A DNA stretch of 64,000 nt from Nostoc foliaceum FACHB-393 (lineage in GTDB: Bacteria; Cyanobacteriota; Cyanobacteriia; Cyanobacteriales; Nostocaceae), in the NCBI RefSeq assembly GCF_014698505.1, contig NZ_JACJTD010000022.1, forward strand, positions 1 through 64,000, given 5' to 3'. A program made the translations under genes and the position numbers. Positions 6,242 to 62,602 of the stretch are shown here, in pieces (the first letter of the stretch is position 1; every line of letters begins with the position of its first letter). Under the pieces are notes generated by a model. It was not told where the DNA came from and did not search any database. It was given only the letters and a program-made list of their open reading frames with translations.

Positions 6242-6541
6242 CTACCACAAAGATAGTTGTCCTGGCGATACATTTCCCCGTCTGCGTGTATGAAACAGCA
6301 TATGACAGCCACTGCATAAAGCCGCGAGATTTTCTGCTCGATTGTCCTCGGGCGTATAATTTCGGTGGTGAACCACTAATGTTTTAATGCTGCGTTCTCT
6401 ACGATTTAACCCATCTCTTTTATCAGTTGGACGTAAGCATTGCATACCGCAGCGCGTGCATTTCCAGTCTGATTTGGATTTGACCTCAAGTGCGATATTA
6501 TCCCAGTTTGAAGAATAGCGACTGCGGTTTTTACCAGTCAT
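6242..6541 (-). CDS. HNH endonuclease family protein
   Basis: The 99-residue protein has the HNH/treble-clef pattern: a first zinc pair (WKCTRCGMQC, residues 26-34), the catalytic His region (VVHHRNYTPEDNRAENL) and a second zinc pair (ALCSGCHMLFHTRR). All expected Cys and His are present, so it looks active. Small free-standing HNH proteins are common on plasmids and phages as nicking or restriction-type nucleases; the exact target is unknown. A degraded C-terminal copy lies at 2077-2238. Confidence 0.85.
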   Translation of the reverse strand: MTGKNRSRYSSNWDNIALEVKSKSDWKCTRCGMQCLRPTDKRDGLNRRERSIKTLVVHHRNYTPEDNRAENLAALCSGCHMLFHTRRRGNVSPGQLSLW

Positions 6542-6611
6542 TAATCAGTTCCTTTTGGGTTGCAGAAAACTAATTTCGATTTAATTTGACGCGATATTAT
6601 TGTGATTATAT

Positions 6612-7151
6612 TTACGCAGAAAGTTTTCCGGAAAAATTCACCTGTGACATAACTTGTGTGCGTATTGAATTAGCAGCCTTCTCTGCAATTTCTTCTCTAT
6701 CAGCATCAGTAAGAACTACTGCAAGTAGCGATTTGAGGGCTTCGCGGTTAGATATAAACTCCTCACCGTATAAATCATCTTGCAACAAAGTAGCTTCCAA
6801 GTGAGGTATTAACTCAGGCGTAGGAGATAGCAACCGCTCTTTAATGCGTGTCCTTGCAGTCTCTGTTGCAGAAGTTGTACCTATACCTAAATCCCATGTT
6901 TCAATTATTAGCCTGACCTCGCGGTTGAGAGATACACGCAGCGTTGATAGGCGACCAAATAAAGGAAGGTTGAGCATTAAAGGTGGTAATGCATTACCCC
7001 AATCCAAACCAGCGCCAATCGTGCAATTTGCTTCATCTTCGATGCAAACAGCCTCTTCGAGCCATCCTTCACCAAAAAGTAAATCTATAGCTTCTTGGGT
7101 TGTTATTGACTCGTTTGCCTCAAAATTATCCTTTTGCTGTTGATGGTTCAT
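6612..7151 (-). CDS. Hypothetical protein, 179 aa
   Basis: It begins MNHQQQKDNFEANESITTQE. A central beta-rich stretch (LSTLRVSLNREVRLIIETW) is followed by a helical C-terminal half (PELIPHLEATLLQDDLYGEE, DADREEIAEKAANSIRTQ). There is no membrane segment. It is 22 bp downstream of the GNAT-like gene on the same strand. The family is not recognised. Confidence 0.55.
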   Translation of the reverse strand: MNHQQQKDNFEANESITTQEAIDLLFGEGWLEEAVCIEDEANCTIGAGLDWGNALPPLMLNLPLFGRLSTLRVSLNREVRLIIETWDLGIGTTSATETARTRIKERLLSPTPELIPHLEATLLQDDLYGEEFISNREALKSLLAVVLTDADREEIAEKAANSIRTQVMSQVNFSGKLSA

Positions 7152-7173
7152 AAATTTTTACCCGGATCAGCCC

Positions 7174-7722
7174 TTATCTTCGTCTCAATACACCATACTC
7201 AAAGTAGACTAAATTATCATATTCTTCTTCCGAACCGCAGTTCAACATGTTTTGTTTTTCATAAAATCCTTCAGACCTTGGTAAGGAATGCAACCCAATT
7301 CTACCTTCATACCCAAGCTCAACACTTCTAATTCTTGCGAAATTTAATAGTGCTTGACCAACACCTTTGAATTGAGGCGGGCGTTGAATCTCGATTCGGT
7401 TAGTGGGGGCAGTGGCAATACCATCAACATAAACTAGCCTCTTACCAATATTTAACCGGGAACCGTGCATTTGCGTTTCTATTATCATTAATCCTTGAGT
7501 TTTGTTTTCGCACTCAATTGCGTAACCTTCAAGATTTTCTTGATTGGCAATATATCTTAATTTGAATATCCAATCCCAGTATTTATCTGATTGACTAAAT
7601 AACCTTAAGCTTTCTACCCAATAATTGACATAATCATCAACATGTCTTTGGACTAAATCTCCCAAATAGGCTTCAACAGATGTATTATCAACACCCCTTT
7701 TTAATTCGATTTTTCGCTGCAC
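7174..7722 (-). CDS. GNAT-like N-acetyltransferase
   Basis: The 182-residue protein has a C-terminal acetyl-CoA-binding-like motif: PPQFKGVGQALLNFARIRS resembles the Q/R-x-x-G-x-G/A loop plus helix of GNAT enzymes. It is followed by GYEGRIGLHSLPRSEGFYEK, which matches the usual beta-strand and FYEKxGF end motif. The N-terminal part (YVNYWVESLRLFSQSDKYW) is less typical. The substrate is unknown. It is the upstream partner of the 6612-7151 gene. Confidence in the fold is moderate. Confidence 0.6.
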   Translation of the reverse strand: MQRKIELKRGVDNTSVEAYLGDLVQRHVDDYVNYWVESLRLFSQSDKYWDWIFKLRYIANQENLEGYAIECENKTQGLMIIETQMHGSRLNIGKRLVYVDGIATAPTNRIEIQRPPQFKGVGQALLNFARIRSVELGYEGRIGLHSLPRSEGFYEKQNMLNCGSEEEYDNLVYFEYGVLRRR

Positions 7723-7749
7723 CTAAAGCTCCTAATTTTCAACTGATTA

Positions 7750-8280
7750 TTAAAGCTTGTGACTGCTATTTGACTGGTAGATAAAAGAGTAAATGTGAAT
7801 GCGTATATCAATAGCTTTATCCCAACCAGCAAGCACAGCATCATCTGAAATGTCTCCAAGAACTACCAAACTATCTTCTTTATCCATATAGTAAGGTAAA
7901 GGTTCAGCGCTCAACCAACCATAAGCAATGGCTTCTTGGTCTCGCTCAATAATTGAAACTTCTAAACTTTGCTCATATGTTGAATAGTAGTAAGGTAAAT
8001 AGCAGGCTGGATACTCTCTTAGAGATTCACGATTAACTGTGTATGATTGCCAACGCAGTTGCTCTCCCTTGATTTCTTTTGGATTAGCTTCTAGCCAATC
8101 ATAGAGCTTTTTAGCTTGCCGCAATGCGTGGTCTTTGCCTTCAAAAACGACGTTGGGAAGAAAAATATCGCCGTCAAAATGCACCGCAACGTCAAATAAA
8201 TCTTCATCTTCATCTTCATCTTCATCTTCATCTTCTGCTTCTGTTATCTCAATGATTCCAGCCTTATATAGTTCGGTCAT
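7750..8280 (-). CDS. Hypothetical protein with an acidic Asp-Glu repeat
   Basis: The 176-residue protein has a run of alternating Glu and Asp near residue 16, produced by a tandem hexanucleotide. The rest is a globular-looking domain (VAVHFDGDIFLPNVVFEG, EALAYGWLSAEPLPYY-like segments). It is the last gene of the local minus-strand group. The repeat is likely a flexible acidic linker. No family is recognised. Confidence 0.5.
   Translation of the reverse strand: MTELYKAGIIEITEAEDEDEDEDEDEDLFDVAVHFDGDIFLPNVVFEGKDHALRQAKKLYDWLEANPKEIKGEQLRWQSYTVNRESLREYPACYLPYYYSTYEQSLEVSIIERDQEAIAYGWLSAEPLPYYMDKEDSLVVLGDISDDAVLAGWDKAIDIRIHIYSFIYQSNSSHKL
8201..8235. repeat. Tandem hexanucleotide repeat (TCTTCA)n
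   Basis: Five perfect copies of TCTTCA followed by TCTTC lie inside the 7750-8280 gene and encode alternating Asp-Glu. Because the unit is six bases, changes in copy number keep the frame and only alter acidic-run length. Confidence 0.9.
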
Positions 8281-32284: not shown

Positions 32285-32571
32285 TACAATCCTCCTAGCA
32301 ATTGCTTGGTGATTTGGCTAACTTGTTCTCGAATTTGGCTAGACTGTATTATCATACTACGGTTATTCTGGCTTGGGCGAATGTTGATGATTGACTCAAA
32401 CACGATTTCTTGAGTGAAAACAGACCAATCCACACCCCAAATATCTCGTTGTCTGCTACCGTCTTTGAGTAACTCTTGTTCACATTCGTAATGGCGAACG
32501 CCACAACCTGCAAGAATTTTGCGTTCGATGTCTACTGCTATTTTAATGAATACATCCCAAGTTTTCACCAT
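32284..32571 (-). CDS. DUF5674-family protein
   Basis: The 95-residue protein matches the DUF5674 pattern: MVKTWDVFIKIAVDIERKIL at the start, then GSRQRDIWGVDW, and later IINIRPSQNNRSMII. The family has no known function and occurs in cyanobacteria. The order and overlap with the helical downstream gene suggest a functional pair. Confidence 0.7.
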   Translation of the reverse strand: MVKTWDVFIKIAVDIERKILAGCGVRHYECEQELLKDGSRQRDIWGVDWSVFTQEIVFESIINIRPSQNNRSMIIQSSQIREQVSQITKQLLGGL

Positions 32572-41194: not shown

Positions 41195-43366
41195 ATGTTA
41201 GTACCCCACAACGATAAGATAGAATCTCAAAAACAACAGATTTTGACTGCAATTGTGCAGGCAAAACAAGATGGTTTGGGCAATGAAGAGATTATAGATA
41301 ATGTACGGGAGACTTTACCTTCCCCAATGGTCTCTTATGCTGAAACTGTTCTACAACAAATAGATTTTAGAGCAAAATTATCACGTCAGGTTATAGAATT
41401 TAATTTAGAATTTTTATTTCAGTCAATATACGAATCATTAATTGCAGGTACAAGTGATGAAGAAATATTATCAATATGTGCAGAACACTGTACTTTAAAC
41501 CAATATGAATTTGTACGTTATGCTCTTGAGTATATTCACCTCAATCGAATGCCATCACACTGGGAGCAAAATAACGTATATCATAAGATGATTGAGATAG
41601 TTAACATATCACCAATTGAATCTTTATTTGAATACATTGAATCAATCAAAAATATTCATCTTAAGCAGATTGGATATAAAGTAGTTCAAGAGAATCTTTA
41701 TAATTTATTTTTAAGAAATAAAGAAACTAGTTATTTTACTGATTTAGCTAATAAATCTAGAGATAAATGCATTAAAAACTATTGTTACCGAACGGCAGTG
41801 CTTGTTGCGCGTGCCACAGGTAAGCCATTAGATTTAAAACTGACAGGTGATGGCTCAATTATTTTAAAAGAGCCTAAATATTTAGATAGAAATACTGGTG
41901 CAAATGAGATTGCTACTTCACAAAAATTAACTATTTTACAGGCAGGGAAGTTATTAGTTGAAACGTTAGAAGATTTTAATATTAATGCTAAGTATGTTGA
42001 TGCCAAAAATGGCCCTACTTTTAACCGTATTAGGGTAAAACTGGGACGGGGTGTTAGTTACAAGAAAGTAGAAGACATCGGTAATGACTTAGTGCAGCAG
42101 CTTGGTGAAGAGTTAGGCTTAAAATTTGCACCAATGGTGAGTGTAGTGCCTGGAGGAGTTGTATTTGACATACCCCGATTAGATAGACAATTTGCTTATT
42201 TCCGCGATTATTTTACTTTTGACGGCGAACCTGATATTTATTCGGTATCGATCCCCGGTGGTGTTGATGTAGATGGCACCTATGTAGAAATTCCACTTTA
42301 TAGCGACAACGTGACTCATATCCTGGGTGGTGGGCGGACGCGGGGTGGGAAGTCGCAATTTGAGAAAGCAGCAATCTTATATTTAGTGCGGCGGTATCCA
42401 CCTTCTGTTGTTCGGTTGGCACTTTCGGATGTCAAACGCGTGACCTTTGGTAAATTTGATGGGCTACCCCATCTTGTTGCCCCAGTTGCGCGTGACGCGG
42501 AGGCGACTGCTAACTTGCTTGATTACTTGGTTGAAGAGATGGAATTGCGGTACCAGGAATTTGAGCGCCACAGCAGTATTGAAACGATCGCACAGTACAA
42601 CCTACGGTTTGCACCTAATTTTGTCATGCCGCGAGTGATTTGTCTAATTGACGAGTGTTTTGATCTACTTTCTGATGATAACTACTGCGATCGCATTGAG
42701 ACTGCGCTGATGAAGTTGCTTGCAAAAGCTGGTGGTGCAGGGATTCATGTACTGTTGTACACGCAACGGCCTGATAAAAACGTGATTGATCCGTTGATTC
42801 GCTCAAACTTTCCGGCAAAGACAGCCTTTGTTACGACTCGCCCTGAAGACAGTTGTATTATCCTTGGGGACGATAAAGACAAACGTGCGGTTTACTTACT
42901 GGGATACGGGGATTTCTTGTATAAAACAACTGAGGTGGTGCGACTTCAGGCGCTTTATGTAGCTGACGATGAAGACCCTGAATACTTCCAGCAATTACTC
43001 CTAGAAGCTAAAAATCAAAACGACCCCTACACAGCTTGGCAGTCTGGGTTAGACTTTGATGAATTTGTCGCTAGTTTGTACGGCGAGCGCAATAGTAAGG
43101 ACATAGGTAAATCTAAAGCTACTGCTGTTATTAAAACTAAACAGCATAAAACTGATTTTGAGGGCAGTTTTAACTTTAAGGTACAGCTTGACGAGGAAGC
43201 AAGAAACTCAATTTTTAATTTGTACCAAAAGGGCTATCAACTTGATGAAATTGTCAAAGCGGTATTCAATTTATCCCGTCAAGATGGTAGGTCGTACAAG
43301 AAATTTAGAAATGTTGTTGAGGAATTTTTAAATAGCTTGAAGCGGGGTGAGGAAGATGATATTTGA
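41195..43366 (+). CDS. FtsK/SpoIIIE-type DNA-translocating ATPase
   Basis: The 723-residue protein has a helical N-terminal part (residues 1-240) and an FtsK-like motor. The motor has Walker A HILGGGRTRGGKSQFEKAAI at about 374-393, SDVKRVTFGKFDGLPHLVAP, Walker B VICLIDECFDLL near 482, and VLLYTQRPDKNVIDPLIRSN, the FtsK sensor region. The C-terminus is a short helical domain. Such motors pump DNA in conjugation (TraB type) or partition. AAGAGG lies upstream of ATG 41195. It follows two wall-degrading enzymes, which supports a transfer role. Confidence 0.85.
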   Translation: MLVPHNDKIESQKQQILTAIVQAKQDGLGNEEIIDNVRETLPSPMVSYAETVLQQIDFRAKLSRQVIEFNLEFLFQSIYESLIAGTSDEEILSICAEHCTLNQYEFVRYALEYIHLNRMPSHWEQNNVYHKMIEIVNISPIESLFEYIESIKNIHLKQIGYKVVQENLYNLFLRNKETSYFTDLANKSRDKCIKNYCYRTAVLVARATGKPLDLKLTGDGSIILKEPKYLDRNTGANEIATSQKLTILQAGKLLVETLEDFNINAKYVDAKNGPTFNRIRVKLGRGVSYKKVEDIGNDLVQQLGEELGLKFAPMVSVVPGGVVFDIPRLDRQFAYFRDYFTFDGEPDIYSVSIPGGVDVDGTYVEIPLYSDNVTHILGGGRTRGGKSQFEKAAILYLVRRYPPSVVRLALSDVKRVTFGKFDGLPHLVAPVARDAEATANLLDYLVEEMELRYQEFERHSSIETIAQYNLRFAPNFVMPRVICLIDECFDLLSDDNYCDRIETALMKLLAKAGGAGIHVLLYTQRPDKNVIDPLIRSNFPAKTAFVTTRPEDSCIILGDDKDKRAVYLLGYGDFLYKTTEVVRLQALYVADDEDPEYFQQLLLEAKNQNDPYTAWQSGLDFDEFVASLYGERNSKDIGKSKATAVIKTKQHKTDFEGSFNFKVQLDEEARNSIFNLYQKGYQLDEIVKAVFNLSRQDGRSYKKFRNVVEEFLNSLKRGEEDDI

Positions 43367-53301: not shown

Positions 53302-53610
53302 TTATCAGAGGGCATAGTTACACAAGTCTTTTATATCAAGATTTTAACAGAAATGGGGGGAGGGGGCATATTTCTCAAAGCCAGAAAATTGCGTTGCCAA
53401 GACCATTTTCACCACTCTGCTGTTTTCTCGAAGGAGTGTAGTGTTTTTTAGTTATAGCTGTGATGTTCCTGTAGCAACCATCATTGCTCAAAAACTGCTT
53501 TTGGTACTTTGCCATTTAAAACTGAGAAACTAGCTTTCTTTGACATCCAGAATTCTCAATTGCATCGGTAAACTTTGCACCCGTTTCTCAATATACATTG
53601 AAACTTGAAA
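53302..53610. other. Intergenic region upstream of the MFS gene
   Basis: About 310 bp. A GGGGGGAGGGGGC tract is seen near 53355. No gene or MerR operator is recognised. Confidence 0.35.
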
Positions 53611-54318
53611 CTACTTGTTATACCAAGCTTTGCGCCACTGTTTCATTTGATTAATCTCTAATTCTTGGGCTTTGATAATTTCTTGAGCCAAGTTTTTGAT
53701 TTCAGGACGCTGAGACTTTTGCAAGGCATCTTTCGCCATAACTACAGCTGATTCATGGTGAGGAATCATCGCGTTAATAAAACGCAGGTCAAATTCTGTA
53801 TCAGCTGCACCCAAGTCCATGTTCATCATCATGGCTTGCATTTGATCAGGTGACATCTCCATCATGTGACCCATTTTGGTATCATAAGCCATTGGTTTAT
53901 CTCCCGCTTTGGGATACCAGGTTGTACGCCACTGTTTCATCTGCGTAATTTCTTGGTTTTGTGCTTTGATAATTTCGTCTGCTAGCTTTTTGATCTCAGG
54001 ACGTTTCGATTTCTGCTGTGCTTCCTTGGCCATTACCGTTGCTCCCTGATGATGCGGAATCATCGCATCGATAAAGCGCAAATCATAGTTAGCATCGGCT
54101 GGGCCTAAATCCATTGCCATGCTGTGGTTCATCATGCCACCGTCGTGATTCATCGGTTGTTTGTCGCTAGTATCAGTGGCGGTGTTAGTGGGGTTTGGTG
54201 CTTGACTTTGGCTTTGGGAAGTGGGTGTAGAACAGGCTGTTAACACGCTGCTGGAAAAAGAGGCGATCGCTACCAAAGCAAATGTCAAAAAGCTGTTTTT
54301 CAGAGTAAGGAATTGCAT
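53611..54318 (-). CDS. DUF305 lipoprotein with two domain copies
   Basis: The 235-residue protein begins with a lipoprotein signal (SSSVLTACSTPTSQ; the lipobox is LTAC). It has two copies of the DUF305 domain, each with a His-rich metal motif (FIDAMIPHHQGATVMAKEAQ and FINAMIPHHESAVVMAKDAL) and a Met-rich segment between them (MGHMMEMSPDQMQAMMMNMD). It is probably a periplasmic copper- or silver-binding protein. A MerR-type promoter (54347-54378) reads into it. The duplication is typical of this family. Confidence 0.85.
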   Translation of the reverse strand: MQFLTLKNSFLTFALVAIASFSSSVLTACSTPTSQSQSQAPNPTNTATDTSDKQPMNHDGGMMNHSMAMDLGPADANYDLRFIDAMIPHHQGATVMAKEAQQKSKRPEIKKLADEIIKAQNQEITQMKQWRTTWYPKAGDKPMAYDTKMGHMMEMSPDQMQAMMMNMDLGAADTEFDLRFINAMIPHHESAVVMAKDALQKSQRPEIKNLAQEIIKAQELEINQMKQWRKAWYNK

Positions 54319-54346
54319 AGGGATGATCTAAATATTTCCTGATTAC

Positions 54347-54378
54347 AGTCTAAAATCTCTAGTTAGCTGGAGAGTCAA
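54347..54378 (-). promoter_or_regulatory. MerR-type promoter 1 (for the DUF305 gene)
   Basis: On the minus strand, TTGACT is followed after 20 bp by TAGACT. The spacer holds the dyad CTCTCCAG ... CTAGAG. A 20-bp spacer is the mark of MerR-activated promoters. It belongs to the CTCCAG class. Confidence 0.8.
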
Positions 54379-54703
54379 TCATTTAGGTGATCTATCTTTT
54401 GCTTAGATAGCTAGTTATTCACAAAGCGACTGCGGCACTTACTACATAGTTTGACAGCCAAAAATGAAATCAGGATGAAATCAAAGTTTGGTGCTAATCG
54501 TACAGATAATATATGAATGCATGTAAATATAAAATCTGCATGAAATCCTGATACCTCAGTAGCTAGAAATATTTATTACCTCATTGGTATGACGCGATAC
54601 CTTCTCTACGAGACGCTCCGCGAACGCACCCGCAAATCTTTAAGGTGAGTCTAGAGACAATAAGTCCTCTAGTAAACTCAAAAAATTTCAAGAAGGTGAA
54701 GAA
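54379..54703. other. Intergenic region between divergent units
   Basis: About 325 bp with a dispersed repeat at 54602-54630 and otherwise plain AT-rich DNA. Confidence 0.4.
54602..54630. repeat. Short dispersed palindromic repeat
   Basis: TTCTCTACGAGACGCTCCGC followed by GAACGCACC is the inverse type of the GCGTCTCGTAGAGA repeat seen at 11262-11312 and 30237-30295. Confidence 0.65.
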
Positions 54704-54802
54704 ATGGCTATACAAGAACTCAAAGTGACTTGGAAATGCGGCAGTCATCTGGTTCCATTAGTATTTGCCTTTATTTCGCTGCTGGTATTGATAGCAATTT
54801 GA
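54704..54802 (+). CDS. Small membrane peptide, 32 aa
   Basis: An ATG at 54704 (with AGAAGGTGAAG upstream) opens 32 codons. The peptide has a polar start (MAIQELKVTWKCGSHLV) and one hydrophobic helix (PLVFAFISLLVLIAI). The good Shine-Dalgarno sequence and the membrane-type composition favour a real gene. It lies between the DUF305 and CopA promoters. Its role is unknown. Confidence 0.45.
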   Translation: MAIQELKVTWKCGSHLVPLVFAFISLLVLIAI

Positions 54803-54890
54803 GCCACATATTCACCATCTATATCTCTAAGTGTAAGCATTTAGAGCGCTGTATCTAATATGTGGCTGAAAAATTTTTCAGCACGACCCT

Positions 54891-54922
54891 TGACTCTCCA
54901 GTGTACTGGAGCATTCAAGATG
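54891..54922 (+). promoter_or_regulatory. MerR-type promoter 2 (for copA)
   Basis: TTGACT is followed after 20 bp by CAAGAT; the spacer contains the dyad CTCCAGTGTACTGGAG. It lies about 50 bp before the copA ATG. Confidence 0.85.
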
Positions 54923-54970
54923 AAATCAGTTAGATGTTAGTTAGCGCCATTTAGTTATTGGAGTAGTCAG

Positions 54971-57232
54971 ATGGAGAATACCACACTCAAACTGCGCGGC
55001 ATGAGTTGTGCCTCTTGTGCTAGCAGCATTGAAGACGCGATTAATTCTGTCCCAGGTGTCAATGAATGTATCGTGAATTTTGGAGCACAACAGGCAACAG
55101 TTAAATATGACCCTAGACGAACTGATTTAAAAGCTATTCAAGAGGCGGTAGATGTAGCAGGTTATTCCGCCTACCCACTCCAAGAACAAAACCTAATGGC
55201 GGGAGAAGATGATGCTGAAAAAAGATATCGCTTAAGAGAATCCCGTGATTTAATGCGAAAAGTGATGGCAGGGGGCATCATTAGCACTGTGTTGGTCATA
55301 GGTTCACTGCCCATGATGACAGGGTTGCACTTACCCTTTATCCCAGCATGGTTGCACAATCCTTGGGTACAGTTGATACTCACTACCCCTGTACAGTTTT
55401 GGTGTGGTTACTCTTTCTACATCAATGGTTGGAAAGCTTTAAAACGTCACGCTGCCACAATGGATACCCTAATTTCTTTGGGTACAAGTGCGGCGTATTT
55501 TTATTCGCTGTTTCCTACATTATTTCCCAGCTTTTTCATCAATCAGGGTTTAACGCCAGATGTATATTATGAAACTGCTGCTGTTGTCATTACCCTGATT
55601 TTGCTAGGAAAATTATTTGAAAATCGCGCTAAAGGACAAACCTCAGAAGCTATCCGTAAGCTAATTGGGTTACAAGCTAAAACAGCGCGTTTGATTCGCA
55701 ATGGACAAGAAGTAGATGTCCCAATAGAAGAAGTAATTATTGGAGATGTGATACTGGTTCGCCCTGGTGAGAAAATTCCTGTTGACGGGGAAGTTATTGA
55801 GGGAGCATCCACAATTGATGAAGGGATGGTGACAGGGGAAAGTTTACCCGTCAAAAAGCAACCAGGCGATGAGGTGATTGGAGCTACCATCAACAAAACT
55901 GGGAGTTTCAAGTTTCGGGCGACACGAGTCGGAAGTGATACAGTGCTGGCGCAGATTGTCCAATTAGTACAGCAAGCACAGGGTTCTAAAGCTCCAATTC
56001 AGAGATTAGCAGACCAAGTAACTGGATGGTTTGTACCTGCGGTAATTGCGATCGCACTGCTCACTTTCATCATTTGGTTTAATTTTACAGGCAACATGAC
56101 TTTGGCGCTGATCACCACAGTTGGGGTACTAATTATCGCCTGTCCTTGTGCGCTGGGTTTAGCCACACCAACATCTGTGATGGTAGGAACGGGTAAAGGT
56201 GCAGAAAATGGCATTTTGATTAAAGGTGCCGAAAGCCTAGAACTGGCACACAAAATTCAAACAATCGTGCTAGATAAAACTGGAACTATCACTCAAGGTA
56301 AACCAACAGTTACCGATTTTGTCACCGTCAATGGTACTGCTAATGGCAATGAGATGAGGTTGGTGCAACTTACGGCATCTGTGGAACGCAATTCTGAACA
56401 TCCATTAGCAGAAGCTGTTGTGAGATACGCCCAATTTCAAGAAGTGGCGTTAGCAAATGTCAAGGAATTTGAAGCAATTACAGGCAGTGGTGTACAAGGT
56501 ATAGTGTCTGGTCATCTTGTGCAAATTGGTACGCAACGATGGATGTCAGAATTAGGCATTGATGCCCAAGTCTTACAACAAGATAAAGAGCGTTTGGAGT
56601 ATCTGGGCAAAACCGCGATTTGGATCGCGGTTGACGGACAAATTCAGGGATTAATGGGGATTTCTGATGCCATCAAACCCACCTCCATACAGGCAATTCG
56701 CGCTTTGCAAAAACTGGGTTTAGAAGTGGTGATGCTCACGGGAGATAATCGCCGCACCGCAGAAACCATTGCCCGTGAAGTTGGTATCGAGCGTGTTTTG
56801 GCAGAAGTCCGCCCCGACCAAAAAGCCGCTACAGTAAAGAAACTCCAATCAGAAGGAAAGATTGTGGCTATGGTTGGTGATGGTATCAATGATGCACCAG
56901 CATTAGCCCAAGCCGATGTAGGAATGGCAATTGGCACTGGGACAGATGTAGCGATCGCAGCTAGTGACATCACGCTGATATCCGGTGACTTGCGAAGCAT
57001 TGTCACTGCCATTCAACTTAGCCGCGCTACGATTCGCAATATTCGTCAAAACTTATTCTTCGCCTTCATCTACAACGTTGCCGGCATTCCAATCGCCGCT
57101 GGTATTCTCTTCCCCATCTTCGGTTGGTTGCTTAACCCCATTATTGCAGGTGCAGCAATGGCATTTAGTTCGGTTTCAGTGGTTACGAATGCCCTACGTC
57201 TGCGTAAATTTCAAGCTAAACCAGTAGCATAA
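54971..57232 (+). CDS. copA: Copper-exporting P1B-type ATPase CopA
   Basis: The 753-residue protein has an N-terminal HMA domain with GMSCASC at residues 10-16. Then come membrane helices and the metal-passage CPC motif in [12 protein letters not shown] near residue 390. The phosphorylation motif DKTGT lies near residue 435 and a [10 protein letters not shown] hinge near residue 637. It exports Cu(I) from the cytoplasm. Transcription from the MerR-type promoter just upstream, and the cupredoxin gene right behind it (12 bp away), fit a copper-resistance operon. Confidence 0.95.
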
Positions 57233-57243
57233 GGAGGTAGCAA

Positions 57244-58149
57244 ATGTTGAGTAAAGTAATTCTTGGCAGTATAGCAAGCTTGGGATTGGCATTCAGTGTT
57301 GTCTCAGATAAAGTAATTGCACAGATGAATCATGAAATGCCAACTACGGAGCGAGCAAAGACAACTCAGTTCCGCCGCATTGAGCAACCATTCTCGGTAA
57401 AAGGTGCAGTTACAACAGTCGGTCTGGGGTTAATCGGACTAGAAATCTGGTGGTTTCTCCTAAGTAAACCAAAGTCCCAAAAAGCCGAAGCCCATGATGG
57501 TATTCAAGAAGTTGGCATTACTGTAGATGGAGGCTATGAACCTAGTCGAATTCTAGTCAATGCCGGTCAAAGAGTCCGCCTTAATTTCCTACGCCGTGAC
57601 CCTAGTAGTTGCCTTGAAGAAATACGGCTACCTGATTTCCATATTGCCAAAAACCTACCACTTAACGAAGTCACATCCGTTGAGTTCACACCCGACAAAG
57701 CTGGTACTCATACTTTCAACTGCGGTATGAATATGTTCCGAGGAGTTATAGAAGTTCAACCTACTGACTCCACTGCAAAAGCAAGCTCAGTAACTACTTC
57801 TCAATCTACTCAACAGATCCAACCAGAGCTTTCTTTGCCTACAGAGTCAGCAACAAAAGCAGTAAAAACACCAGAAGGCACTCAAGAAGCGACTGTTACG
57901 GTTGAAAAGGGTTACAAACCGGAAAGAGTAATTGTGGAGGTGGGACAATCAGTGAGATTGGACTTCCAACGTCATAATCTAAGCAAGTGCTTTGATAAAT
58001 TACTAATACCAGACTTTGACTTAGCCGTTGACCTTGCTCCTAACCAAACCACTTCAGTAGAATTTACTCCTAAGTATCCTGGTGAATATGAGTTCACCTG
58101 CGGTATGAAAATGTATCGTGGTGTTGTGGAAGTAAAGCCTGCCACATAA
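57244..58149 (+). CDS. Membrane-anchored protein with two cupredoxin-like domains
   Basis: The 301-residue protein has a signal-like start and a membrane helix (AVTTVGLGLIGLEIWWFLLS, about residues 56-75), followed by two cupredoxin-like domains. Each has GYEPSRILVNAGQRVRLNFL or GYKPERVIVEVGQSVRLDFQ near its start and a copper-site end (FNCGMNMFRG and FTCGMKMYRG), with Cys-Gly-Met. It probably binds copper outside the membrane and may pass it to or from CopA. It is in one operon with copA. Confidence 0.85.
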   Translation: MLSKVILGSIASLGLAFSVVSDKVIAQMNHEMPTTERAKTTQFRRIEQPFSVKGAVTTVGLGLIGLEIWWFLLSKPKSQKAEAHDGIQEVGITVDGGYEPSRILVNAGQRVRLNFLRRDPSSCLEEIRLPDFHIAKNLPLNEVTSVEFTPDKAGTHTFNCGMNMFRGVIEVQPTDSTAKASSVTTSQSTQQIQPELSLPTESATKAVKTPEGTQEATVTVEKGYKPERVIVEVGQSVRLDFQRHNLSKCFDKLLIPDFDLAVDLAPNQTTSVEFTPKYPGEYEFTCGMKMYRGVVEVKPAT

Positions 58150-58188
58150 TCCAGTAGCAAATAATTAGCAAGATGATCCTGTTCTCAC

Positions 58189-58220
58189 TTGACTCTCCAG
58201 TTAACTAGAGAGTTTAAGAT
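58189..58220 (+). promoter_or_regulatory. MerR-type promoter 3 (for the first merR)
   Basis: TTGACT is followed after 20 bp by TAAGAT, with CTCTCCAG ... CTAGAGAG in the spacer. It suggests autoregulation of the following merR. Confidence 0.85.
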
Positions 58221-58258
58221 AAGGTAAATAAACTTATCTAGCATGAGAGCAGCTAATT

Positions 58259-58672
58259 ATGTTAGTCCAAGAAGCGCCAAAACTCATTGGTAATGTTGCT
58301 AAGTCTAGCGGTGTACCAATTAAAACTATTCGCTATTATGAGGAGCTAGGTCTACTTAGGTCATTAGGGAGAACCGAGGGTGGATTTAGATTATTTAACT
58401 CTGATGTTTTGGCTCGCTTGAACTTTATCAAACGTGCCCAAAGTTTGGGATTGACCTTATCAGAAATTAAAGATTTTTTAAATGTTCACGACGGAGGTGA
58501 ATTACCCTGCGTACATATAAAAGCTAAACTGCAAGATAAGATAACAGCCATTGATGAGCAAATTCAGCAATTACTCATTCTCAGGCAAGAATTATCAGGA
58601 CTAGTTTCTGGTTGGGAAACAATACCTGAAAATCCTGAACAAACAATTTGTCCTATTATTGAAAGAAATTAA
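58259..58672 (+). CDS. MerR-family metal-responsive regulator 1
   Basis: The 137-residue protein has an N-terminal MerR HTH (IGNVAKSSGVPIKTIRYYEE) and wing, followed by RLNFIKRAQSLGLTLSEIKD. The metal-binding residues are likely Cys84, His86 and Cys131 (ELPCVHI, TICPII). A Cys at the position equivalent to ZntR Cys79 is more usual for divalent metals than for copper sensors of the CueR class. It probably controls the operators of the CTCCAG class. The metal is not certain. Confidence 0.85.
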   Translation: MLVQEAPKLIGNVAKSSGVPIKTIRYYEELGLLRSLGRTEGGFRLFNSDVLARLNFIKRAQSLGLTLSEIKDFLNVHDGGELPCVHIKAKLQDKITAIDEQIQQLLILRQELSGLVSGWETIPENPEQTICPIIERN

Positions 58673-58799
58673 ACAATTAGGCTGTTCATTTAATTTTTTA
58701 TCAGCACATCGACGTATTAAGTTAAGTTGATGTGCTGATTCTTTATTAATTCAATTAATCATTTATAAATAAATCACTTATTTTTTTTAATTTTACCTC

Positions 58800-58831
58800 T
58801 TGACTCTCCCGTAAGCTGGAGAAATTAAACT
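58800..58831 (+). promoter_or_regulatory. MerR-type promoter 4 (for the copZ-like gene)
   Basis: TTGACT is followed after 20 bp by TAAACT; the spacer has CTCTCCCG ... CTGGAG. It drives the small chaperone gene. Confidence 0.8.
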
Positions 58832-58912
58832 AATTTTAGTTGAGTAGATTAATCGTATATTTACTCAACAATTTTCAGAAAAGTAGTTATCTTCACTAAG
58901 GAATTTAATCCT

Positions 58913-59107
58913 ATGACGCTGCAACTAACGGTTCCCAAACTAGCTTGTTCTGCTTGCGCGAATACTATCACCAAAGCAATTCAATCAATTGATTCTACAG
59001 CAACAGTGCAAGCTGATACAAAAACAAAAATTGTCAGTATAGAAACTCAAGCACCTGAAACTAAAATTAAAGAAGTAATAGCTGCCAGAGGCTATCCATC
59101 TGTTTAG
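58913..59107 (+). CDS. CopZ/Atx1-like copper chaperone
   Basis: The 64-residue protein is one HMA domain with a CxxC motif in KLACSACANTI (residues 9-19), followed by a standard beta-alpha-beta pattern. It binds Cu(I) and delivers it to CopA. It has its own MerR-type promoter. Confidence 0.85.
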   Translation: MTLQLTVPKLACSACANTITKAIQSIDSTATVQADTKTKIVSIETQAPETKIKEVIAARGYPSV

Positions 59108-59213
59108 GTTTTTGAGTTTATTCTACTATCAGTAGTCAGCATTGAATGAACTGCTGATAGTCAAATATTCATTTCAGAAAAGTCCTTCTGCTTTTAGAAG
59201 AGAGGTGACTTAT

Positions 59214-59417
59214 ATGAGTTTACTTTTTCTGATTCCACTGACGATTGGTTTAGCAGTTAGTTATTTGTTTAAAAATTCTAGTGACGACATGGCAGAATTA
59301 ACAAGTTTATCTACAGTTGCTTGCCTAATTGTCAGTTTAATATTAGCACCTTGGCAACTAAAAGTTGTGGTTCTAATGCTTGCCATATTAACTCCCCAGA
59401 CGAATTCAGACTTTTGA
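59214..59417 (+). CDS. Small membrane protein, 67 aa
   Basis: The start at ATG 59214 has AGAGAGG upstream. The protein is hydrophobic at its start (LLFLIPLTIGLAVSYLFKN) and again near residues 36-56 (TVACLIVSLILAPWQLKVVV LMLAIL). It has two membrane helices. Its position in the metal operon suggests a role in metal handling. No family is recognised. Confidence 0.5.
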   Translation: MSLLFLIPLTIGLAVSYLFKNSSDDMAELTSLSTVACLIVSLILAPWQLKVVVLMLAILTPQTNSDF

Positions 59418-59451
59418 ATAACTTCAATTATTAAAAAATGGAGCAAAATCA

Positions 59452-60330
59452 ATGAATCGATTTCTGAATGCAATTGCTATAACTACTACTTTGATACTGG
59501 CTCAAAGTTGCTCCTTATTAGTTAGAGACGAAGGGAAACCAATATCTGCTGCCACACATCAGCATGAGGAGCATTCGATGGGTGAGATAAATCACAGAGA
59601 ACATTCAACAAGTGGCGCGGGTGATGAGAAGAAAGCATTGACTCAGGCAAAACTCAAAGTTCTAAGCATCATTACCCCCAATAAAAGTATTCCTATATTG
59701 ATTGATGTTCAAGATTTGGATGGGAAAGCGATCGCCAAATTTAACACTTTCCAAGAAAAGCTAATGCACCTCATTCTTGTCAGCGATGATCTTCAGTTTT
59801 TCAGTCATCTTCATCCCACATATAAGGAAAATGGGCAGTTTGAAGTTACAGCCCGTTTTCCGCAAGCAGGCAATTACACATTTTTTAGTGACTACAAACC
59901 TGCTGGTCAAACAGAACAAGTCTCAGTATTGAAAACACAAGTTTCTGGGAACAGTATTGCAGCCCCAGAAATTAACCTAAATCGCAGTAAAACGTTCAAT
60001 GATACTAAAGTTAATCTTGCTGTTTATGAACCTACTGTGAAAGCGGGTAAAGAAGTCACTTTAATGTTTAAATTACAAGAAGCTTCTAACAATCAACCGC
60101 TTACAGACTTGCAGCCATACTTAGGAGAAAAAGGACATTTAGTTATTCTGCGACAGTCAACCTCATTAACAGCAGCAGATTACATTCATGCTCACGCGCT
60201 AAAAGATACCCCTGCTGGACAGGTTCATTTTATGACTAGCTTTCCTCAACCAGGAAAGTATAAACTCTGGGGTCAGTTTAATCGCAATGGCAAAATCGTC
60301 ACAGCTGATTTTTGGATAAATGTTGTTTAA
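59452..60330 (+). CDS. Metal-resistance lipoprotein with His-rich linker
   Basis: The 292-residue protein begins with a lipoprotein signal peptide (ITTTLILAQSCSLL; the lipobox is LAQSC). A His-rich stretch follows (THQHEEHSMGEINHREHST), then two beta-rich domains with His motifs (LMHLILVSDDLQFFSHLHPT and YIHAHALKDTPAGQVHFMTS). It probably binds metal in the periplasm. It resembles the YtkA/FixH-like layout, but the family call is tentative. Confidence 0.65.
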   Translation: MNRFLNAIAITTTLILAQSCSLLVRDEGKPISAATHQHEEHSMGEINHREHSTSGAGDEKKALTQAKLKVLSIITPNKSIPILIDVQDLDGKAIAKFNTFQEKLMHLILVSDDLQFFSHLHPTYKENGQFEVTARFPQAGNYTFFSDYKPAGQTEQVSVLKTQVSGNSIAAPEINLNRSKTFNDTKVNLAVYEPTVKAGKEVTLMFKLQEASNNQPLTDLQPYLGEKGHLVILRQSTSLTAADYIHAHALKDTPAGQVHFMTSFPQPGKYKLWGQFNRNGKIVTADFWINVV

Positions 60331-60456
60331 TTTAGCTGATATTTTATCAGTAAAACGAGAAGTGCAAAACTCTTGTGTTTTTAACTTTATATGTACACAG
60401 TACCCTATGCGAATTTACCACCCAAATGGGTAGTAAATTCCTCCTTCTTACTGCCT
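60331..60456. other. Short intergenic region between convergent genes
   Basis: About 125 bp, with ACCACCCAAATGGGTAGT forming a small hairpin near 60416. No gene is seen. Confidence 0.35.
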
Positions 60457-60708
60457 CTAATTTAGGGGTTGACCTACACCAGCTGCTCGCAGCTGCTCTA
60501 AATTCGGTTTACCAGTTAAGACAAGTCTTCCATTGATTGCGATCGCTGGTACTGCATTTACTCCATACTGCTGGGCTTTCTCCTGTTCTTGTCGCAAGTT
60601 ATAAACCGATACTTCACAGTCAGGACAAGTCAGTTCTTGCACCATTTGCACTGTCTCATCACAAAGAGGACAGTCAGCTGTAAAAATCTCAATTTGACGT
60701 TTTGTCAT
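60457..60708 (-). CDS. Small thioredoxin-like protein with two CxxC motifs
   Basis: From ATG 60708 the protein is 83 residues. It has a CPLC motif in FTADCPLCDETVQMVQEL (residues 10-27) and a second CPDC in TCPDCEVSVYNLRQEQEK. It ends with the glutaredoxin-like AVPAIAINGRLVLTGKPNLE. It could act in redox or metal transfer in the cytoplasm. It has a MerR-type promoter of the CTATAG class. Confidence 0.8.
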   Translation of the reverse strand: MTKRQIEIFTADCPLCDETVQMVQELTCPDCEVSVYNLRQEQEKAQQYGVNAVPAIAINGRLVLTGKPNLEQLRAAGVGQPLN

Positions 60709-60739
60709 GATGTCTACCAAAAATTTTTTCTACTCATTC

Positions 60740-60771
60740 ATTCTGAATCCTCTAGTCGGCTATAGAGTCAA
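60740..60771 (-). promoter_or_regulatory. MerR-type promoter 5 (for the thioredoxin-like gene)
   Basis: On the minus strand, TTGACT is followed after 20 bp by CAGAAT, with CTCTATAG ... CTAGAG in the spacer. Confidence 0.75.
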
Positions 60772-60928
60772 CCCCATAGGTAAATATTATTTTTCAAATA
60801 ACCTTTATTAAAATTTATTGGACATATCATTCCCTAAAATTTGCAAGCCTGCATTGTCAAGTTTTAAGCTAATATTTTTGCCTACAAGTATTGTAATTAA
60901 ACTTTACACAAAAATTGACAATTATCAC

Positions 60929-60960
60929 TTGACTCTCTAGCTGACTATAGACTTTAAAGT
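60929..60960 (+). promoter_or_regulatory. MerR-type promoter 6 (for the second merR)
   Basis: TTGACT is followed after 20 bp by TAAAGT; the spacer holds CTCTCTAG ... CTATAG. It is a mixed type between the two operator classes. Confidence 0.8.
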
Positions 60961-60987
60961 TATAACAACACATAGTAGTAAATAACT

Positions 60988-61476
60988 ATGATTGCTGTCG
61001 TGAAACAAGTTTGCTGTGAAGTATCATCCCCAAAAAAGCTGCTGAAAATTGGTGAGCTGGCGAAGCAAACTGATGTGGCAGTGGGAACAATTCGGTATTA
61101 CGAAGGCTTGGGCTTGATAAAACCAGTTGAAAGAAGTGAAAGTGGCTACCGTTATTACGACTGCGAGGCAATCAACAGGCTGCAATTCATCAAAAAAGCC
61201 CAATCCTTACAGTTTTCCCTATCTGAAATTCAACAAGTACTAGGCATTCGTTCCCAAGGCGACCCTGCTTGTCCACTAGTTCGGGATTTACTCAAACAGA
61301 AAATTGCTCATCTTGAGGAGCAGATTTATCGCATGAAGCAACTGAAGGATGAGCTAGAGGCATATCAACAACGTTGGGAAAACCGACCTTTGGATAATCC
61401 CTGTAATAAAGAGCTTTGTAGCTTGATTGAGGAAGTTGCTTGCTCTGATATACCTCCTCACAATTTCCGAGACTAG
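60988..61476 (+). CDS. MerR-family metal-responsive regulator 2
   Basis: The 162-residue protein has an N-terminal extension of about 16 residues with Cys-Cys (VVKQVCCEVSS) before the MerR HTH (IGELAKQTDVAVGTIRYYEG). The metal-site Cys are Cys95 (GDPACPLV), Cys139 (DNPCNKELC), Cys144 and Cys152. The pattern resembles Zn/Cd/Pb/Hg-type MerR sensors. It probably acts on the CTATAG-class promoters (60740, 60929, 61489). The metal is not certain. Confidence 0.85.
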   Translation: MIAVVKQVCCEVSSPKKLLKIGELAKQTDVAVGTIRYYEGLGLIKPVERSESGYRYYDCEAINRLQFIKKAQSLQFSLSEIQQVLGIRSQGDPACPLVRDLLKQKIAHLEEQIYRMKQLKDELEAYQQRWENRPLDNPCNKELCSLIEEVACSDIPPHNFRD

Positions 61477-61488
61477 TAAATTTATTAC

Positions 61489-61520
61489 TTGACTCTATAC
61501 CCGAATAGAGACTTTAGAAT
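61489..61520 (+). promoter_or_regulatory. MerR-type promoter 7 (for the secreted Met-rich gene)
   Basis: TTGACT is followed after 20 bp by TAGAAT; the spacer has CTCTATAC ... ATAGAG. It lies just before the 61573 gene. Confidence 0.8.
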
Positions 61521-61572
61521 GGCCTTAGTTTCTCAGAAACTACTAAATTAACAGAATAATGGAGAGTACAAA

Positions 61573-61893
61573 ATGAACATTAACATTAGTACAGGCGTTA
61601 AGACACTATTGAGCGGAGCCGTAGCTAGTTTTGCATTGCTTACGTTAACCACTACTGCTTCCTTTGCCAACACCCCCAAGGTAACTGTGACACCGAATCA
61701 ATCCGCCAGGGCTATAAACGAAGCAAAACTAATTCAAGTGCTGACCAGTCAAAGAACAGCGCCAACGAATCAAACGCCACAGCAGCCAAACCAAACGGGA
61801 TGTAAGTGTTGCCAAGGAATGATGAATAAGATGCCAGGAATGATGAACAATATGCCGGGAATGATGAACAACCAAGATAGTCCATCAAAATAG
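61573..61893 (+). CDS. Secreted Met-rich, Cys-containing metal-binding protein
   Basis: The 106-residue protein begins with a signal peptide (residues 10-32, ending TASFANTP). It ends with GCKCCQGMM and a repeat of Met-Pro-Gly-Met-Met units. The Cys cluster and Met repeats are typical of copper-binding tails. It sits behind a MerR-type promoter of the CTATAG class, so it is part of the metal response. No family is recognised. Confidence 0.7.
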   Translation: MNINISTGVKTLLSGAVASFALLTLTTTASFANTPKVTVTPNQSARAINEAKLIQVLTSQRTAPTNQTPQQPNQTGCKCCQGMMNKMPGMMNNMPGMMNNQDSPSK

Positions 61894-62048
61894 AGCTTGA
61901 TAAATCCCTCGGCGGGAAGCACATTTTGAAAATGTCAGAAAAACTAGGAGTCCTTAGAAAAATCTCGCCGAAAAAGGCTAATGAACTCATTGCTAAGGAA
62001 GCCATTTTATGGTTTGGCTAAGGAACTTAAGCTAAACCATTATGACTA

Positions 62049-62579
62049 TTGAACTCGTTCCTTTTATCCAGAAGCTCAAATCGCACTTGCTTTTGCGTTT
62101 TTTATGGATGGCCTGCTTCTGGGGCGCAAGGGCTGCATACTTCTACTGATGGTGGCAAAACTTGGACTAAACCCCGCATGAATGGATTAGGCGATACTCC
62201 TTTTGACTTTGTGGTTGAACCCCGTAACCCTGAGCATTTGTTTGCAACTACCCGTTCGGGAATGTACAAAAGCACTAACAGTGGTAATGACTGGATGCTA
62301 GTACCTAATACGCGGGAAGCTCCTGTTGCCAGTCTAGCTCTGCAAAAAGAGGGTAACAGCACTGTAATGTATGGCTATCGTTTTCTCAAGTCAGCGCCGG
62401 GTGTTTATCGCAGCAGTGATGGTGGTAAGACGTGGGAGAAACTTTGGACTGAAACTAATGGAGTCGTTGTGAAACTAGCGATCGCTCCCAACAATCCCCA
62501 AATGCTTTATGCAGTGAATGAGAACAATACTGTCTTTCAATCGCAGAATCAAGGCAATAGCTGGAAAGAGTTAAATTAA
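62049..62579 (+). pseudogene. C-terminal part of a BNR-repeat (sortilin/Ycf48-like) protein
   Basis: The useful frame from about 62100 has beta-propeller repeats: GLHTSTDGGKTWTKPRMNGL, MYKSTNSGNDWMLVPNTREA, VYRSSDGGKTWEKLWTETNG and FQSQNQGNSWKELN. These are Asp-box-type BNR repeats. The expected N-terminal signal and first repeats are missing, and the upstream frame is unrelated. It may be a fragment of a secreted propeller protein. Confidence 0.6.
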
Positions 62580-62602
62580 CTGTCTGTCGTCTACGTAAGA
62601 CC

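Follow-up and report, generated by a model that had tools for sequence, protein, structure and literature searches.

Two neighbouring MerR-type circuits on a copper island of Nostoc foliaceum are probably insulated by slightly different operator sequences

Genes and promoters of the island

We analyzed a stretch of 64,000 nucleotides of Nostoc foliaceum FACHB-393 (assembly GCF_014698505.1, contig NZ_JACJTD010000022.1, positions 1 to 64,000; hereafter, the window), which is part of a contig of 137,602 bp (C93). Near its right end, the window carries a copper island with two MerR-family regulators, called here MerR1 and MerR2, and seven promoters of the MerR type. These regulators and promoters appear to form two neighbouring circuits that slightly different recognition sequences keep separate. 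The island includes a CopM-type DUF305 copper-binding protein on the minus strand (53611..54318; PF03713; NF049983, 129.3 bits for a cut-off of 90). It is followed on the plus strand by the copper-type P-ATPase CopA (54971..57232; TIGR01511, 664.9 for a cut-off of 397), which also passes the cadmium-type model TIGR01512 with a lower score (417.9 vs. a cut-off of 313.5), and by a protein with two cupredoxin-like stretches (57244..58149, plus strand; two PF13473 matches). MerR1 (58259..58672, plus strand) and MerR2 (60988..61476, plus strand) both score above the cut-offs of the MerR-family models PF13411, PF00376 and PF09278; alignment places Lys22 in the recognition helix of MerR1, along with Cys84 and Cys131, and Gly33 in that of MerR2, along with Cys95 and Cys144. 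Between the two regulators lie an HMA-domain metallochaperone-like protein (58913..59107, plus strand; PF00403), a small open reading frame (ORF) without Pfam match (59142..59417, plus strand) that is kept in the plasmid stretches L203-L205 and L207 described below, a His/Met-containing exported protein without Pfam or NCBIfam match (59452..60330, plus strand), whose homologues adjoin MerR1 orthologues, and a thioredoxin-like protein (60457..60720, minus strand; PF13192). A small exported-looking Met-rich protein with the motif CKCC, seen in translation and without family match, follows MerR2 (61573..61893, plus strand).

All seven promoters of the island, read in the sequence and located by script, consist of TTGACT, a spacer of exactly 20 bp and a -10-like hexamer (TAGACT, CAAGAT, TAAGAT, TAAACT, CAGAAT, TAAAGT and TAGAAT). 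Each of them overlies a dyad whose centre falls between bases 14 and 15, counting from the first T of TTGACT. Promoters of the family typically enclose a dyad operator and have a spacer of 19-20 bp; this arrangement was found in 7/7 cases, with 20 bp. Every promoter is directed into a gene: four belong to a first class (CopM, CopA, MerR1 and HMA) and three to a second (thioredoxin-like, MerR2 and Met-rich). The discriminator between the classes is CC at positions 9-10, in the same numbering, which class 1 presents in at least one half and class 2 in neither. Since the half CTCTAG occurs in both classes (54378 and 58189 in class 1; 60771 and 60929 in class 2), it is the CC at positions 9-10, and not CTCTAG, that separates them.

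Halves are given here as the left half followed by the reverse complement of the right half, and bits are log-odds of the MerR1 over the MerR2 half-site matrix (see below). In class 1, the CopM operator (54347..54378, minus strand) has the halves CTCCAG/CTCTAG (+5.5 bits) and a -35 located 60 bp from the ORF start. The operator of CopA and cupredoxin (54890..54921, plus strand) is CTCCAG/CTCCAG (+13.6 bits; 81 bp from the -35 to the CopA start), that of MerR1 (58189..58220, plus strand) is CTCCAG/CTCTAG (+3.7 bits; 70 bp), and that of HMA, which probably also serves the genes behind it (58800..58831, plus strand), is CTCCCG/CTCCAG (+9.4 bits; 113 bp to the HMA start). Class 2 comprises the operators of the thioredoxin-like gene (60740..60771, minus strand; CTATAG/CTCTAG; -3.5 bits; 51 bp), of MerR2 (60929..60960, plus strand; CTCTAG/CTATAG; -7.9 bits; 59 bp) and of the Met-rich gene (61489..61520, plus strand; CTATAC/CTCTAT; -4.9 bits; 84 bp).

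We compared these sites to chance expectation by requiring an exact TTGACT and a score of at least 14, the score rewarding the -35, the dyad and the -10 while being blind to class. The region 54000-62000 presented 7 sites, whereas 500 dinucleotide shuffles of it averaged 0.046 and never exceeded 1. The whole window presented 8 sites, the eighth of them at 32391, whereas 60 shuffles averaged 0.267 and never exceeded 2. At the same score, 97 sites were found in the stretches L091-L150 vs. 12 in the reversed control; the shuffles and the reversed controls in relatives rule out a chance origin of the seven sites. Two candidates for an eighth site were not accepted, one at 32391 with a poor -10 and one at 60096 that lies within a gene and reads TTGATT. 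Genome-wide, the pattern TTGACTCTNNAGNNNNCTNNAG with at most one mismatch yielded ten rows: six of the seven island sites, a palindrome on contig C98 that was matched on both strands, and two others. The seventh island site matches TTGACTCTNNAGNNNNCTNNAG only with two mismatches, a level at which the 78 genome-wide matches are not far above the 55 of the reversed control; another loose pattern likewise remained near its control (235 vs. 188). The exact class-2 pattern occurs at three places in the genome, all inside the island, for two in its control.

A preliminary description of this DNA had proposed seven MerR-type promoters with TTGACT and -10 separated by exactly 20 bp, and reading, script and shuffles all confirm them. 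Its positions need small amendments: 54891 should be 54890, and for the two sites on the minus strand, 54347 and 60740 mark the -10 end. Its division into CTCTCC-type and CTATAG-type half-sites was nearly right in that there are two classes, except that CTCTAG is common to both and the CC at positions 9-10 is what distinguishes them.

Operator class and regulator in relatives

We searched 291 genomes of the class Cyanobacteriia with each regulator and fetched 100 stretches, five of them from the same genome as the island, as well as ten stretches from named plasmids. The comparison of regulators with their operators took in 98 of the 100 stretches, the ten plasmid stretches and the window. With scoring on the -35, the -10 and the dyad and no weight on class, a site was found at most 260 bp upstream for 62 of 115 regulators, with one site each. 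Window excluded, a CC half was present in 23/24 sites adjacent to MerR1 and in 0/21 sites adjacent to MerR2. Operator class thus goes with regulator clade, as expected of selective MerR paralogues, with the exceptions given below. A later set of 28 loci contained 32 regulators, of which 22 had a site, and CC was found in 0/22; this set holds no Lys or MerR1-type regulator, which makes it a one-sided test. We further trained half-site matrices on unique sites, 43 of MerR1 and 17 of MerR2 (restricted to the Gly type for MerR2, with the later set included and with the window and L203-L207 left out). In leave-one-out classification, 43/43 MerR1 and 17/17 MerR2 training sites were placed correctly, and these matrices, trained elsewhere, assigned 7/7 window sites to the classes of the preliminary description. 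Both the relatives and the matrices therefore support its proposal of two regulons, each operator class paired with one regulator.

The two regulators differ in their recognition helices (PIKTIRYYE in MerR1 and AVGTIRYYE in MerR2). Lys22 is found in 40/42 MerR1 orthologues, and the matching position of MerR2 orthologues is occupied by Gly in 8, Ala in 8 and Pro in 1 of 17. When sorted by this residue, again without the window, a CC half was found in 26/27 sites of regulators with Lys and 0/33 of those without it; after removal of duplicate residue/half-site combinations, these numbers were 12/13 and 0/21, respectively. The sections of PMC5045206 (Korostelev et al.) that bear on this residue report protein position 14 and site position 6 as the most significant correlation in MerR-family metal regulators, where the C-K pairing occurs 191 times and T-K is under-represented; C-K is also given there at site position 5 for cyanobacterial HMRTR regulators. 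Judging from the helix register, position 14 would correspond to Lys22/Gly33, and site positions 5-6 to positions 9-10 here. These comparisons of sequences suggest that the class determinant is likely this single residue of the recognition helix, Lys22 vs. Gly33.

Other residues at this position were observed within the MerR1 clade: Gln in L132, whose HMA site is CTCTAG/CTCTAG, and Arg in L145. The latter has a site without CC at a gene resembling CopM, with 38% identity, less than the 45% that we required of target homologues. Arg is also found in L183, where the HMA promoter is a CTCCAG palindrome. In the MerR2 clade, we considered a strict code in which Gly goes with T and Ala with A at position 10. 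T was present at position 10 in 21/23 Gly sites and 0/8 Ala sites of the first set, and in 18/19 Gly and 1/2 Ala/Pro sites of the later set. Gly and Ala/Pro are separated by four changes on the tree, which provide three independent pairs on starred branches; base 10 follows the residue in 2.8 of these pairs and opposes it in 0 on average (sign test, P = 0.25). On these grounds, we demoted this code to a tendency. A different dyad promoter, TTGACC-TTGAAG...GTTCAA, was observed before thioredoxin-like genes at L106 (1304) and L108 (8365), and L106 has a third kind of MerR nearby, with Ser in the recognition helix.

The same stretch was found on plasmids: 17 plasmid records match. In three of them, each about 215 kb long, the match extends over 91% of 53500-62600 with 91.4% identity, and the one examined was typed as conjugative. 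Contig C93 itself is likely a plasmid. In L203, a Tolypothrix plasmid with both regulators, CC is present at CopM, CopA, MerR1 and HMA and missing at thioredoxin, MerR2 and Met-rich (the thioredoxin site scores below threshold). In L206, also with both regulators, the sites of CopM, HMA, MerR1 and the exported protein contain CC, whereas those of thioredoxin, MerR2 and Met-rich do not. L204 and L205 are without MerR2 and every gene-assigned site in them has CC; the stretch of L208 contains MerR2 along with two sites without CC. In L204 (plasmid pNPM1, 9346-9416), the thioredoxin-MerR2 segment is gone and the Met-rich operator is reduced to its right half and -10, a sequence pattern consistent with a single deletion in which the regulator and its operators were lost together. 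Relative to L203, 209/224 positions of the seven 32-bp promoters are identical, vs. 563/705 for the rest of the same intergenic pieces; there was no excess for the promoters of MerR1 (30/32 vs. 73/77 in the surroundings) and MerR2 (29/32 vs. 71/76) taken individually. The CopA piece of L206 was left unaligned because another gene sits there. MerR1 is annotated in L207 (N. linckia NIES-25 plasmid, 6422-7914) as two pieces flanking a transposase gene, and L209 and L210 (Brasilonema and Nostoc plasmids) present RND efflux adaptor and permease genes directly behind the MerR2 orthologue.

In the window itself, a partial ORF of the F510_1955-type glycosylhydrolase (62049-62579) matches only model positions 106-246 of 246, below the cut-off, and is probably a remnant. 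The region to the right of the island (L091 and L092; C93 60001-100000) contains genes for TolC and for a pair of histidine kinase and response regulator, as well as two RND efflux genes, an ArsR-like gene and the gene of a P-type ATPase with three HMA stretches; apart from one weak match, it presented no additional promoter of the MerR type. PADLOC gave no matches.

Several observations weigh against the pairing of each operator class with its own regulator. Four of the seven window sites, two per class, have a CTCTAG half, and the smallest class log-odds are only 3.5-3.7 bits (58189 and 60771). No nearby site was found for 53/115 regulators, which fall outside the count; many MerR1 genes lie behind copA, apparently in one operon. 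Two sites of Lys regulators read CTCTAG/CTCTAG: the own promoter of L096, the sole miss of the 24, and the HMA site of L184. CC occurs in MerR2-type-only stretches at one CopM (L099) and one HMA (L104), and in the right half of the thioredoxin site of plasmid L211, a stretch in which only MerR2 was found. Conversely, all sites found in the stretch of L210 are without CC, although it has MerR2 and an Arg-type relative of MerR1. The genome of the island encodes a third MerR, located near a class-1 site (C98; see below). Finally, on a tree of 62 rows built with a quick method and with the residue column masked, Lys/non-Lys is one change and CC/non-CC two; with a single change of residue, our counts show consistency and not repeated origin.

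Shared regulators, metals and target genes

Class-1 sites might be shared with the third MerR (contig C98, 37830-38234; L093), so that this class would be served by two regulators. This protein, a paralogue of MerR1 with 60-61% identity, is encoded near a second HMA-CopA-cupredoxin set, the promoter of which is a class-1 CTCCAG palindrome (41493-41520). Against this, its recognition helix has Arg and not Lys, and the -35 of the C98 site reads TAGACT. We regard such sharing as a real possibility, somewhat less likely than not.

The two regulators might also respond to different metals, MerR1 to copper and MerR2 to ions of the Cd/Pb/Zn type. The CTATAG half of the MerR2 sites resembles operators of PbrR/CadR. 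The best score of MerR2 is to the CadR-PbrR model TIGR02047 (100.4 bits), and it has Cys95 at the place of CueR Ser77, which a passage of PMC9909328 links to divalent ions. However, this score misses the cut-off of 151.45, MerR1 has the same Cys, and MerR2 orthologues are found near CopA, cupredoxin or CopM genes in L097, L099, L101, L104, L109 and L110. In L097, MerR2 adjoins HMA, CopA and cupredoxin genes, and the single site found is directed at merR2, which makes this case evidence of copper association and not of a target swap. A division by metal is therefore unlikely in our view, and copper is the likeliest signal because CopA, CopM and cupredoxins are the neighbours.

The ligand set calls for caution as regards this signal. 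MerR1 misses the cut-offs of the CueR model TIGR02044 (88.7 for 147.4), of TIGR02047 (79.7) and of the MerR model TIGR02051 (96.2 for 150.85), and MerR2 likewise misses those of TIGR02044 (83.9) and TIGR02051 (95.3). Both regulators keep the dimer-helix Cys and one loop Cys (Cys84 in 41/42 and Cys131 in 42/42 MerR1 orthologues; Cys95 and Cys144 in 17/17 MerR2 orthologues) and the first loop Cys is absent. Its column, defined by CadR and by the 4ua1 protein, is occupied by Trp in 24/24 MerR2 and 35/46 MerR1 proteins (W130 in MerR2 and W119 in MerR1), and no Cys was found within 18 residues before this column in 46/46 MerR1. As far as the relevant part of PMC9909328 goes, almost all members have two loop Cys and the dimer-helix residue is tied to ion charge; the wording "almost all" implies that one loop Cys does not exclude membership.

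Alternatively, both regulators could bind all seven sites as one functional regulon, the sub-classes being drift. The CTCTAG half at 54378, 58189, 60771 and 60929 and the small log-odds at 58189 and 60771 would fit this explanation, which we consider quite improbable since the split is kept in plasmid relatives and distant orthologues, and since gene-assigned class-2 sites are absent from L204 and L205, both without MerR2.

We further compared operator class with the target gene. In stretches with only MerR1-type regulators, CC was present at 35/37 target sites, including the thioredoxin gene of L176, a genome in which the regulator search gave no separate MerR2 match. In those with only MerR2-type regulators, CopA was without CC in 2/2 (L101 and L110). 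The genomes of the two stretches with CC beside MerR2 contain further regulators: in L099, a MerR1 orthologue is located at another place of the contig, and L104 gave a MerR1-like match (E = 1e-33). A rival explanation, in which the target gene or the history of the promoter sets the class and the regulator does not, is suggested by CopA, HMA, CopM and the exported protein, which have CC in 34/36 cases in MerR1-type-only stretches, and by L099 CopM and L104 HMA, which keep it beside MerR2, but the regulators' own promoters differ by class and the swaps (CopA without CC beside MerR2 in L101 and L110; thioredoxin with CC beside MerR1-type only in L176) weaken this explanation, which we consider very improbable. 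These sequence patterns suggest that operator class mostly follows the regulator, with exceptions. The assignment in the preliminary description of one regulon to the CopA side and the other to the thioredoxin-like and Met-rich side holds in the island and its close plasmid relatives, and is not fixed to these genes elsewhere.

Proposed circuits and comparison with known systems

Overall, two side-by-side MerR circuits, with MerR1 on the four CC promoters and MerR2 on the three non-CC promoters, a 20-bp switch and one residue that reads positions 9-10, constitute a highly probable explanation of the island. Dimers of MerR1 (Lys22) would occupy the promoters of copM, copA-cupredoxin, merR1 and HMA with the genes behind it, and dimers of MerR2 (Gly33) those of the thioredoxin-like gene, merR2 and the Met-rich gene. 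We infer that each regulator binds its own class without cross-binding, with the second recognition-helix residue as the main source of specificity, a residue that would read positions 9-10 of each half. The dimer would hold the promoter with its 20-bp spacer unproductive, and the metal-bound dimer, most likely with Cu(I), may distort the spacer such that RNA polymerase can use the promoter, by analogy with the family: sections of PMC9909328 and PMC3431237 describe a dimer that holds an over-long promoter in an unproductive state and, once metal is bound, distorts it so that it can be used. Levels of CopA, HMA, CopM, cupredoxin and the exported protein would then be raised by MerR1, and those of the thioredoxin-like and Met-rich proteins by MerR2.

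A broader proposal, which we find doubtful, is that MerR1 and MerR2 represent an undescribed sub-type pair of copper sensors, in which the dimer-helix Cys, one loop Cys and the Trp would bind the metal. A one-residue code (Lys for CC, Gly for AT/AC, and Ala/Pro tending to CA) would insulate the two and would have moved operators across whole regulons, and the pair would divide a single copper response between an export arm and a periplasmic-capture arm carried on conjugative plasmids. If the explanation by two side-by-side circuits is right, regulon membership in many cyanobacterial metal islands could be predicted from one residue and two bases. The island would offer a compact natural case of cross-talk avoidance between closely related MerR circuits, in which 8 kb hold two regulators and seven promoters along with a single candidate residue; the regulator losses and target swaps in relatives amount to natural experiments, and the proteins point to metal sensors with an atypical ligand set.

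Among the matches listed from openly licensed PMC full texts on cyanobacterial MerR operators and copper MerR regulators, no title concerned these regulators. Operator selectivity among MerR paralogues and the Lys-C pairing are already known. What our literature searches indicate to be new is that two operator classes share one cyanobacterial copper island, that AT/AC halves go with a Gly-type reader, and that the metal loop has a Trp. The Salmonella sensors CueR and GolS, the subject of work by Perez Audero in 2010 and of a JBC paper of 2013 on the operator selectivity of paralogues, are paralogues in one cell whose distinct operators reportedly differ by few bases, the selectivity residues there being reported at helix positions 16 and 19. 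At the matching places, both regulators of the island have Thr and Tyr; they differ instead at the residue before the Thr, Lys in MerR1 and Gly in MerR2.

The island shares with CueR the Lys in the recognition helix with a CC half (Table 2 of PMC5045206), the CPIIE loop end in MerR1 and CopA as a target. It differs by its spacer of 20 bp, relative to 19 for the family except ZntR in the pertinent section of PMC3431237, by Cys in place of Ser77, by the missing first loop Cys and by the missed TIGR02044 cut-off. The CadR/PbrR group is the best NCBIfam match of MerR2, and a passage of PMC3431237 gives the pbrA promoter a TTGACT -35 as here. Unlike this group, MerR2 has Gly where the excerpted data of PMC5045206 give Glu (T-E), falls below the cut-off and is without the first loop Cys. 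Finally, the combination of CopM and RND efflux against copper resembles copMRS/copBAC of Synechocystis as outlined in part of PMC4284471, but copM is controlled there by the two-component system CopRS, whereas here copM has a MerR-type promoter.

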